Assembly: GCF_022524345.1 (NCBI RefSeq)
Contig: NZ_JAKWJU010000002.1
Span: forward strand, 5,570,001-5,634,000
Source: Streptomyces marispadix
GTDB lineage: Bacteria; Actinomycetota; Actinomycetes; Streptomycetales; Streptomycetaceae
DNA length: 64,000 nucleotides
Direction of reading: 5' to 3'
The position numbers and the translations under genes are program-made. The notes beneath the pieces are model-generated. The model was not told the DNA's origin. It did no database searches and worked only from the letters and a program-made list of their open reading frames with translations. Of this stretch, positions 58,384 to 61,467 are shown piece by piece. How positions within the stretch are numbered: position 1 is the first letter of the stretch; the number at the start of each line of letters is the position of its first letter.

Positions 58384-59094
58384 TCACAGATGGATCCCGC
58401 ACTCGCTCTTGCCCCTGCCCGACCAGCGCCCGGCCCGTGCGTCCTCCCCTTCGAGCACGCGCCGCGTGCACGGGGCGCACCCCACCGAGGCGTAGCCGTC
58501 AGAGAGCAGAGGATTGGTCAGCACGCCGTGCTCCGCGATGTAGGCGTCGACATCTGCCTGATTCCAGCGGGCGATCGGCGAGATCTTGACCTTCTGCCTG
58601 CGCTCGTCCCAGCCGACCACGGGAGTACCCGCGCGAGTCGGCGACTCGTCGCGGCGCAGCCCCGTCGCCCACGCGTCGTAGGCACGCAGCCCCTCTTCCA
58701 GCGGCGCCACCTTCCGCATGGCACAGCACAGATCGGGGTCCCGGTCGTGCAGCTTCGGCCCGTACTCGGCGTCCTGTTCGGCGACGCTCTGCCGGGGCGT
58801 CAGCGTGATCACCTCCACGTCCATGACGGCGGCCACGGCGTCGCGCGTACCGATGGTCTCGGGGAAGTGGTAGCCGGTGTCGAGGAATACGACGTGGACG
58901 CCGGGGGCGACCCTGGAGGCCAGGTGCGCCACCACGGCGTCCTCCATGGACGAGGTGACGCAGAAGCGGTCGCCGAAGGTGTCGGCCGCCCACCGGAGCA
59001 CCTCCAGCGCCGGGGCGTCCTCCAGCTCACGGCCCGCGTCCTCCGCGAGCCGCCGCAGCCGCGCCGCCGAGTCCTGTTGCCGGACGGTGGTCAT
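58384..59094 (-). CDS. cysH: Adenylylsulfate (APS) reductase, CysH family
   Basis: This 236-residue PP-loop reductase makes sulfite from APS (or PAPS) with thioredoxin. It contains CVTSSMEDAVVAHLASRV, FLDTGYHFPETIGTRD and, decisive for type, the cysteine pairs CCAMRKVAPLEEGL and SVGCAPCTRRV that bind a 4Fe-4S cluster in APS-specific enzymes, plus the catalytic C-terminal ECGIHL. ATG 59094 overlaps the zinc-ribbon gene stop by four bases (ATGA). A 133-base gap separates it from cysC. Confidence 0.93.
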   Translation of the reverse strand: MTTVRQQDSAARLRRLAEDAGRELEDAPALEVLRWAADTFGDRFCVTSSMEDAVVAHLASRVAPGVHVVFLDTGYHFPETIGTRDAVAAVMDVEVITLTPRQSVAEQDAEYGPKLHDRDPDLCCAMRKVAPLEEGLRAYDAWATGLRRDESPTRAGTPVVGWDERRQKVKISPIARWNQADVDAYIAEHGVLTNPLLSDGYASVGCAPCTRRVLEGEDARAGRWSGRGKSECGIHL

Positions 59095-59297
59095 GAAGTG
59101 CCGTCTCCTTCCCGGGCGTTCGCCCCGCCGTCCGCACTGCCTCCCGGCCTCAGCCCGGCGGCCAGCAGGCCGCGGAAGGAGAGCGCGAACGCCCTGTTGC
59201 ACGAGGCGCACTCCCAGGTGCCGTGACCCGCATCCGAGGGGCGCAGATCCTCGTCGCCGCAGTACGGGCAGTAGAACGGCGCGGCACGCTCGCTCAC
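59091..59297 (-). CDS. Small zinc-ribbon protein of the sulfur operon
   Basis: This 68-residue protein carries a zinc-ribbon pattern, CPYCGDEDLRP and then WECASCNRAF, followed by a hydrophobic-aromatic stretch ALSFRGLLAAGLRPGG. A homologue between nirA and cysH is, as I recall, common in Streptomyces; function is unknown, perhaps binding metal or protein in sulfite reduction. GTG 59297 overlaps by four bases the stop of the mini-ORF in the array before it, and its own stop overlaps the cysH start. Its first codons (GTGAGCGAG) match the first codons after nirA (ATGAGCGAG), which helps explain the array. Confidence 0.88.
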   Translation of the reverse strand: MSERAAPFYCPYCGDEDLRPSDAGHGTWECASCNRAFALSFRGLLAAGLRPGGSADGGANAREGDGTS

Positions 59298-59773
59298 TGT
59301 GTCCCCCGCTCAGCCTCGCCACGCTTTGACGCGTCGGCTTCCCTCGTCACTGCTCGCTCCTTCGTCGCTGCGCGGCTTCTCGGTCCAGCCGACGCCGCGT
59401 GCCGAGGCTCGCTCGTTGTGTCCCCCGCTCAGCCTCGCCACGCTTTGACGCGTCGGCTTCCCTCGTCACTGCTCGCTCCTTCGTCGCTGCGCGGCTTCTC
59501 GGTCCAGCCGACGCCGCGTGCCGAGGCTCGCTCGTTGTGTCCCCCGCTCAGCTTCGGCTCGCTTTGACGCGTCGGCTTCCCTCGTCACTGCTCGCTCCTT
59601 CGTCGCTGCGCGGCTTCTCGGTCCAGCCGACGCCGCGTGCCGAGGCTCGCTCGTTGTGTCCCCCGCTCAGCTTCGGCTCGCTTTGACGCGTCGGCTTCCC
59701 TCGTCACTGCTCGCTCCTTCGTCGCTGCGCGGCTTCTCGGTCCAGCCGACGCCGCGTGCCGAGGCTCGCTCAT
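59298..59773 (-). repeat. Four tandem 119-bp repeats carrying coupled mini-ORFs
   Basis: Four copies of a 119-base unit start at 59298, 59417, 59536 and 59655 and fill the whole space between the zinc-ribbon start codon and the nirA stop. Copies 1 and 2 match each other, as do 3 and 4; the pairs differ by a few bases. On the coding (minus) strand each unit has AAGGAG six bases before GTG. Because 119 is two modulo three, each mini-ORF ends in a TGA that overlaps the next unit's GTG (GTGA). They read: ATG 59773 to stop 59585 (62 codons), GTG 59588 to 59466 and GTG 59469 to 59347 (40 each), GTG 59350 to 59294 (18), which overlaps the zinc-ribbon GTG. Peptides are Arg/Ala-rich (VTREADASKR) and may be by-products. 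Confidence 0.95.
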
Positions 59774-61467
59774 TTCAGGGCACCCTCTTCCGCGCGGGCC
59801 GCCCACTGGGCGAAGCGCTCGCCGTCCTCGCGCTGTTCCTGGAAGTTGCGCAGCACGCGCTCGATGTAGTCGGGCAGTTCGTCGGCGGTGACCTTCAGCC
59901 CGCGCACCTTGCGGCCGAAGCCGGGCTCCATGCCCAGCGAGCCGCCGAGGTGCACCTGATAGCCCTCGACCTGCTCGCCGTCCGCGTTGGTGACGAGCTG
60001 GCCCTTGAGGCCGATGTCGGCGACCTGGATGCGGGCGCAGGAGTTGGGGCAGCCGTTGAGGTTGATGGTGACCGGCTCGTCGAACTGCGGCATCCTGCGC
60101 TCCAGTTCGTCGATCAGAGACGAGCCTCGTGCCTTCGTCTCGACGATGGCCAGCTTGCAGAACTCGATGCCGGTGCAGGCCATCGTGCCGCGCCGGAAGA
60201 CCGACGGGCGCGCCGTGAGGTCGAGGGCCTCAAGCGACTCCGTCAGCGACTCCACCCTGTCCCCGGGCACGTCGAGGACGATCATCTTCTGCTCGGCGGT
60301 GGTACGGACACGGCCCGAGCCGTGCGACTCCGCGAGGTCCGCGATCTTGGCGAGCGTGCCTCCGTCGATCCGCCCGACGCGCGGCGCGAAGCCCACGTAG
60401 TAGTTGCCGTCCCGCTGTTCGTGCACGCCGATGTGGTCGCGCCACTGCGCCACGGGCGCCTTCGGCGCCGGGCCGTCGGCCATCTTCCGCAGCAGGTACT
60501 CGTCCTCCAGCACCTGGCGGAACTTCTCCGCGCCCCAGTCGGCCACGAGGAACTTGATGCGCGCTCGGGTACGCAGCCGCCGGTAGCCGTAGTCGCGGAA
60601 GACGGAGACGACGCCCTCGTGGACGTCGGCGACCTCCTCCAGCGGCACCCAGGCGCCGAGCCGCACACCCAGCTTGGGGTTGGTGGACAGCCCGCCGCCG
60701 ACCCATACGTCGAACCCCGGGCCCAGTTCGGGGTGTTCGACGCCGACGAACGCCACGTCGTTGATCTCGTGCGCTACGTCGAGCAGCGGCGACCCGGAGA
60801 CCGCGGTCTTGAACTTCCGCGGAAGGTTCGAATAGGCGGGGTTGCCGATGACGCGCCGGTGGATCTCGTCGATGGCGGGGGTGCCGTCGATGATCTCGTC
60901 GGCGGCGATACCGGCGACCGGTGAGCCCATGATGACGCGCGGGGTGTCGCCGCACGCCTCGGTCGTGGAGAGCCCGACGCTCTCCAGCCGCCGCCAGATC
61001 TCCGGCATGTCCTCGATACGGATCCAGTGGAACTGGATGTTCTGCCGGTCGGTGATGTCCGCGGTGCCGCGGGCGAAGTCCTGCGAGATCTCGCCGACGG
61101 TGCGCAACTGCCGCGTCGAGAGCTGCCCGCCGTCGATGCGGACGCGCAGCATGAAGAACTCGTCGTCCAGCTCCTCCGGTTCCAGCACGGCGGTCTTGCC
61201 GCCGCTGATCCCGGGGCGGCGCTGGGTGTACAGACCCCACCAGCGCATGCGTCCGCGCAGATCGGCGCCGTCGATCGAGTCGAATCCACGGTGCGCGTAG
61301 ATCGTCTCAATGCGTGTCCGCACATTGAGACCGTCGTCGTCCTTCTTCGTCTGCTCGTTGCCGTTGAGCGGAGTGAAGTGCCCCGCGGCCCACTGCCCTT
61401 CGCCACGATGGCGTCCGGCCTTGCGGCGGCTCGGCGGGGAAGCGGGACGCTTGGAGGTGTCGGCCAT
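59770..61467 (-). CDS. nirA: Ferredoxin-dependent sulfite reductase
   Basis: NirA (Sir) reduces sulfite to sulfide with six electrons from ferredoxin. The 565-residue enzyme has two homologous halves. Cluster and siroheme are held by MACTGIEFCK and NGCPNSCARIQ (the four Cys). The substrate-binding Arg and Lys lie in RTVGEISQDFARGTADITDRQNIQ and the region around GGGLSTNPKLG; the Tyr and Cys that form the cross-link in the mycobacterial enzyme can be matched to WGLYTQRRPG and TTEACGDTPR. ATG 61467 is the first start. The stop TGA lies inside ATGAGCGAG at the array edge. A leader peptide lies 276 bases upstream. Confidence 0.95.
   Translation of the reverse strand: MADTSKRPASPPSRRKAGRHRGEGQWAAGHFTPLNGNEQTKKDDDGLNVRTRIETIYAHRGFDSIDGADLRGRMRWWGLYTQRRPGISGGKTAVLEPEELDDEFFMLRVRIDGGQLSTRQLRTVGEISQDFARGTADITDRQNIQFHWIRIEDMPEIWRRLESVGLSTTEACGDTPRVIMGSPVAGIAADEIIDGTPAIDEIHRRVIGNPAYSNLPRKFKTAVSGSPLLDVAHEINDVAFVGVEHPELGPGFDVWVGGGLSTNPKLGVRLGAWVPLEEVADVHEGVVSVFRDYGYRRLRTRARIKFLVADWGAEKFRQVLEDEYLLRKMADGPAPKAPVAQWRDHIGVHEQRDGNYYVGFAPRVGRIDGGTLAKIADLAESHGSGRVRTTAEQKMIVLDVPGDRVESLTESLEALDLTARPSVFRRGTMACTGIEFCKLAIVETKARGSSLIDELERRMPQFDEPVTINLNGCPNSCARIQVADIGLKGQLVTNADGEQVEGYQVHLGGSLGMEPGFGRKVRGLKVTADELPDYIERVLRNFQEQREDGERFAQWAARAEEGALK

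Follow-up and report, generated by a model that had tools for sequence, protein, structure and literature searches.

A probable mobile hairpin element at operon junctions of Streptomyces, putatively coupled to translation and tandemly amplified in Streptomyces marispadix

Between a reductase gene and a small zinc-ribbon gene, the minus strand of Streptomyces marispadix carries four consecutive units of exactly 119 bp (Table 1). The question raised by this locus is whether such an array is a device that sets the expression of its neighbours, a local duplication, or an element that also occurs elsewhere and was multiplied here. The window in the following is the whole stretch of 64,000 nucleotides that was analysed (contig NZ_JAKWJU010000002.1, positions 5,570,001 to 5,634,000), and positions are counted from its first letter.

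A first-pass annotation of the window described four tandem copies, each with AAGGAG six bases before a GTG, and these copies are real. TRF reports a period of 119, 4.1 copies and 98% matches (score 912), the units agree pairwise at 115–119 of 119 positions, and AAGGAG-N6-GTG is present in all four, with the GTG at 59707, 59588, 59469 and 59350. A 119-bp array at such identity is far beyond chance. Units 1 and 2 differ at a single base, and the units carry two sequence variants in an ordered arrangement. The upstream gene, annotated at first as nirA, scores below cutoff with models of both nitrite and sulfite reductases, ferredoxin-nitrite reductase being the best match, and its position next to cysH suggests sulfite reduction. 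The family matches of the 68-residue zinc-ribbon-like protein are weak, all of them below cutoff.

Table 1. Features of the array and of its flanking genes in the S. marispadix window.
Feature	Positions	Strand
cysH, phosphoadenylyl-sulfate reductase, overlaps the zinc-ribbon stop by ATGA	58384..59094	-
Downstream gene, 68-aa zinc-ribbon-like protein, two CxxC motifs	59091..59297	-
Tandem array, four 119-bp hairpin-element units	59298..59773	-
Unit 1, begins ATGA, overlaps the reductase stop	59655..59773	-
Unit 2, begins ACGA	59536..59654	-
Unit 3, begins ACGA	59417..59535	-
Unit 4, begins ACGA, identical to unit 3	59298..59416	-
Mini-ORF 1, ATG start, 62 codons, in-frame internal GTG at 59707	59585..59773	-
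Mini-ORF 2, GTG start, 40 codons	59466..59588	-
Mini-ORF 3, GTG start, 40 codons	59347..59469	-
Mini-ORF 4, GTG start, 18 codons, ends on the zinc-ribbon start (GTGA)	59294..59350	-
Upstream gene, nitrite/sulfite reductase family (NIR_SIR)	59770..61467	-

The genes and mini-ORFs had also been read as linked stop to start, and NTGA overlaps are indeed found along the whole array. ATGA at 59773 comprises the reductase stop and the start of mini-ORF 1, GTGA overlaps link mini-ORF 1 to 2 (59588), 2 to 3 (59469) and 3 to 4 (59350), another GTGA at 59297 links mini-ORF 4 to the zinc-ribbon gene, and ATGA at 59094 links the latter to cysH. The chain of mini-ORFs stands as to its linkage, with a refinement at its head, where mini-ORF 1 starts at the ATG and the GTG of copy 1 is an internal, in-frame codon. 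Mini-ORF 4 is short because its end is the zinc-ribbon start. As the unit length of 119 cannot be divided by three, linkage between the units is kept through the GTGA inside each hairpin. At the internal unit junctions (59654, 59535 and 59416), as well as in the two-unit array of genome G233 (L018), the expected NTGA reads ACGA or GCGA; in both 119-bp arrays the start/stop at the junction is thus lost and linkage runs via the internal GTGA.

Elsewhere in the S. marispadix genome, the only other match to the unit is 22 nt long (E 0.008). In a sample of 392 genomes of the genus, BLAST with one unit finds matches in 13, and a covariance model built from 14 copies finds matches in 12. The BLAST matches are full-length, partial or short, none was read as belonging to a larger element, and neither a transposase nor a larger partner of the element came to view. 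Full-length copies are present in 11 of the 392, S. marispadix included and a partial match in G373 removed, and a deeper search of 14 chosen genomes with more candidates scored gave no further copies. An exact-pattern scan of 84,980 species genomes, which may leave out records close to the S. marispadix genome, returned 18 stretches, all from Streptomyces. The matches come from S. violaceusniger, S. iranensis, S. himastatinicus, S. niphimycinicus, S. milbemycinicus, S. samsunensis and S. sp. NBS 14/10, which we take to be one group, and from S. violens, S. natalensis, S. nanshensis, S. daqingensis, S. albidus, S. sp. HNM0575 and S. sp. WMMB 322. With model R1 and strict filters, S. marispadix is the only match among 296 genomes of the phylum. 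Phage and plasmid records contain no match to the element, and neither do viral contigs searched with the exact core pattern only. Rfam offers no family at gathering score (18.8 bits at most on the window vs 50), and the literature matches listed, among which subscription papers are mostly absent, hold no account of the Streptomyces element, which is weak evidence.

Short BLAST matches that were judged to be due to chance or unresolvable (L005, L017, L021) were removed before counting, as was the G373 sequence (L016/L033), a different palindrome with a short core in common. This palindrome, in positions 1–200 of L016/L033, has the core GCGACGAAGGAGCGAGC with long inverted repeats on its flanks, and is perhaps a relative of the element or a terminator-like structure.

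The element occupies 28 loci at seven unrelated sites, A to G, with one to four sites per genome (four in G055). A locus is counted if it has one full-length unit or more; the partial copies of G389 and S. albidus are not included, and copies present in two collections are counted once (G086, G233, G150, G180, G372). According to the gene families, looked up for one locus per site, the element is found between the reductase and zinc-ribbon genes (site A, 12 loci), a PotA-like ATPase and a PotB-like permease (B, 4 loci), a sugar-type ABC permease pair (C, 4 loci), GPW_gp25 and baseplate-J-like genes (D, 4 loci), an ORF of unclear family and a DNA-3-methyladenine glycosylase (E, 1 locus), and a DrrA-like ATPase and an ABC-2 permease (F, 1 locus). 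At sites A–F, that is in 26 of the 28 loci, it lies in sense on the stop/start overlap, and the upstream frame stops in its first NTGA; at site A of S. samsunensis this frame is a short mini-ORF following the reductase. Site G (2 of 28 loci) is not at a gene junction, and the element is placed there antisense within the 3' end of an ORF resembling a membrane protein. A locus contains one, two or four units, and all three values occur at site A. Single inserts measure 119–125 bp and tandem spacing is 117 or 119 bp: 117, a multiple of three, in the two-unit arrays at C, D and F, and 119 in the site-A array of G233.

In 21 of the 26 loci at sites A–F a mini-ORF or a chain of mini-ORFs ends on the downstream start with a 4-nt overlap. 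One continuous mini-ORF, from the upstream NTGA to the TGA overlapping the downstream start, is found in 19 of all 28 loci, and the NTGA-to-NTGA distances in these (119, 122, 125, 236, 239, 257) are all 2 modulo 3. Chains via an internal GTGA occur at two loci, S. marispadix (476) and G233 (238), where each added 119-bp unit is not divisible by three. The modulo-3 rule is broken at site A of G055 (distance 121), where the mini-ORF stop lies 4 nt beyond its usual place. In all four loci of site B the mini-ORF continues in frame into the PotB-like permease, with which it is fused. The permease in these loci (L019, L009, L012, L062) has an N-terminal extension of element origin, and the NTGA of the right edge reads GCGA in L019 and L012 and is otherwise lost. 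At site G, a stop interrupts the mini-ORF of the S. milbemycinicus copy, and bases are masked in the other. The mini-ORF frame is open in 32 of 33 distinct copies, with one stop seen vs about 2 expected without selection, so that the 74 derived alleles over which this was tested show no selection against stops. With a stop count so near the neutral expectation, the open frame alone is no evidence of translation; the frame-preserving lengths are the better indication of it, with one exception.

The array had been proposed to have entered the small gene at its start codon, and comparison of this junction across Streptomyces, as the first-pass annotation advised, agrees with this. Among the best 30 of 198 genomes with a match, 21 junctions are empty, each with a single NTGA overlap, 4 contain the element, 3 have a short insert, 1 is cut by a contig end and 1 has other downstream sequence. 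That this junction is seldom occupied suggests that the insertion is dispensable. A filled and an empty site can be compared directly in G165, with ATGA on the left and GTGA on the right of the element, and G150, with a single ATGA; the two share 290 of 300 bases in the upstream flank and 135 of 140 in the downstream flank. At site B it is G165 that lacks the element; its gene junction has one GTGA, and its flank is 97% identical to that of G055. The filled edges at this site are GTGA and GCGA in G384 and ATGA and GCGA in G055, so the right edge resembles a second NTGA in which T has become C. Close empty sites were recovered at A and B only. The empty relatives of sites C and D are not close, with flanks 73–77% and 74–86% identical, and have an NTGA at nearly all junctions. 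An orthologous empty site for F was sought and none was recovered, and relatives of site G are too diverged to reveal the target.

The element has a terminal or near-full-length inverted repeat. Seven copies folded singly each give one long hairpin, and six of them lie at least 2.8 standard deviations below the mean of their shuffles, window unit 1 lying only 0.98 below. The Shine-Dalgarno-like AAGGAG and the internal GTG are located in the apical part of the predicted hairpin. Alignment A3 comprises 34 of the 36 full-length units; the two left out are both from NBS 14/10, one from site F with an 18-nt internal duplication and one from site G with masked bases. Over 33 distinct copies, standard pairs fill 98.0% of pair cells vs 93.3% in shuffled alignments (0 of 500), double changes are found in 52 cells vs 16.8, and covariation is 0.219 vs 0.130 (0 of 500), with slid controls at 0.082 or less. 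The number of pairs with double changes (7 vs 5.1) was reached by 36 of 500 shuffles and is not decisive; as to the other fold measures of the five, three were reached by no shuffle and one by 6 of 500. Shuffles keep the relatedness of the copies, and for this reason the slid control and the presence of all four Watson-Crick types at pair 26/82, the columns of which are codon positions 2 and 1, matter more. In the frame of the mini-ORF pN/pS is 1.02. The fold is kept and the mini-peptide shows no constraint. A tree of the copies is weakly supported, with stars on 3 of its 30 inner branches. It places 13 of 16 site-A rows in one group, which indicates that vertical inheritance explains much of site A; beyond this grouping support is too weak for the tree to trace the order of moves.

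The unit is very probably a non-autonomous mobile hairpin, transparent to translation, which has been tandemly amplified in S. marispadix. Such an element of about 115 bp plus the four-base NTGA would transpose into NTGA sequences, its insertions being found mostly where the NTGA is the stop/start overlap of neighbouring operon genes. In this reading each copy is both a long hairpin and an open mini-ORF, which extends from the upstream-stop NTGA to the downstream-start NTGA and contains, close to its 3' end, a purine-rich stretch resembling a Shine-Dalgarno sequence. It is hypothesized that a ribosome ending the upstream gene restarts on the mini-ORF, opens the hairpin by translating it, halts at the far NTGA and restarts on the downstream gene, and such a hand-over would render the insertion nearly invisible to the operon and nearly neutral for the host. 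The apical AAGGAG/GTG would be poorly used unless a ribosome coming from the upstream ORF opens the hairpin, as strict coupling requires. The hairpin may also serve mobility. In S. marispadix, the element at the reductase/zinc-ribbon junction would have been amplified to four units.

The same features could belong to a regulatory device, in which hairpin and copy number determine how strongly the downstream genes (zinc-ribbon, cysH) are expressed relative to the upstream one and are kept for this effect. Compensatory changes maintain the hairpin, the tandem copy number varies at site A, and for a mycobacterial repeat array the length reportedly correlates with the mRNA of the downstream gene (PMC2734929). 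However, covariation is equally expected if mobility needs the hairpin, the 21 empty junctions among the best 30 of 198 keep their overlap intact, the sites share no common pathway and presence is patchy, with 11 of 392 genomes, which makes a regulatory device unlikely. The rarity at site A together with the unrelated sites favours a mobile element that is tolerated over a regulator specific to the cys genes. The frame, open in nearly all copies and fused to the permease N-terminus in four loci, might alternatively encode a functional small peptide that drives the spread of the element. We give this hardly any credence, as the pN/pS value is that given above, covarying stem positions change amino acids freely and the openness of the frame is close to the neutral expectation.

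Slippage, one of the origins considered in the first-pass annotation, or unequal exchange probably explains the step from one to four units, and only that step. Local tandem duplication without mobility fits the near-identity within the unit pairs 1/2 and 3/4 and the single locus in the S. marispadix genome, but as a full account it is contradicted by the unit at six other unrelated sites in other Streptomyces and, further, by nearly identical but unoccupied counterparts of two of the seven, and it is extremely improbable. The number four itself could be an artefact, with fewer units in the real chromosome, near-identical tandem units being a classic assembly hazard. The ordered pattern of two variants and the two-unit arrays in other assemblies at A, C, D and F speak against this, and we regard it as very unlikely; the main conclusion is independent of the number four.

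REPIN, BOX, RUP, ERIC and MITEs are short imperfect palindromes dispersed between genes without an encoded transposase. Judged by description, the Streptomyces element resembles them in its inverted repeat and differs in its full-length mini-ORF and in the placement of 26 of 28 loci on stop/start overlaps in one orientation. Like the families of Rfam, it is a candidate structured RNA. A closer parallel in arrangement is found in the MIRUs of mycobacteria, for which transposition into DTGA sites was reportedly proposed in the original MIRU paper, that of Supply in 1997. MIRUs are described as apparently mobile short repeats inserted at start codons, with an internal ORF coupled at -4 nt (PMC12548453); they are 40–100 bp long and occupy 41 chromosomal locations, some with variable copy number (PMC2734929), and occur in tandem between senX3 and regX3 (PMC2734929, PMC4213456). 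The Streptomyces element is likewise dispersed, over seven sites in the species examined, is positioned at a start codon with a 4-nt overlap in 21 of 28 loci, a likeness of position only, and forms tandem arrays of varying copy number (1, 2, 4). In contrast, its unit is about 119 bp rather than the 40–100 bp cited for MIRUs, its host is Streptomyces (18 of 18 stretches) and not mycobacteria, and it fills 1–4 sites per genome against the 41 locations cited; a long covarying hairpin is documented for the Streptomyces element. By analogy, the element works like a MIRU, the likeness being one of arrangement, and since size and host differ, membership in the MIRUs is not claimed.

These observations suggest that MIRU-style insertion, with the overlap rebuilt on both sides, also takes place in Streptomyces, with a differently sized and strongly structured element. 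At a single operon junction, copy numbers of 0, 1, 2 and 4 form a natural series, with which it can be tested directly, in a soil genus, whether such repeats tune downstream expression or are silent. The four loci with the element in the permease frame offer a route from mobile repeat to protein sequence. A more tentative extension, which we hold to be possible but rather doubtful, is that the element represents a second "junction parasite" family, sharing no descent with the MIRUs, with a machinery that would recognise the NTGA plus the hairpin, possibly as single-stranded DNA or through mRNA. Operon overlaps would then serve generally as a niche for mobile elements that the ribosome takes for genes and that are able to become new protein N-termini.

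Short inserts at site A show the same spacing, with lengths of 32 (L135), 41 (L151), 35 (L152) and 38 nt (L060), all 2 modulo 3. Those of L135 (G194), L151 (G028) and L152 (G096) lie between the reductase and zinc-ribbon genes with NTGA on both sides. The 3' part of the L135 insert resembles the end of the element, and some of the short inserts may thus be deletion derivatives. In S. samsunensis (L060, 4083–4245) the NTGA-flanked insert of 38 nt, similar to that of L152, directly precedes a full-length element at site A.
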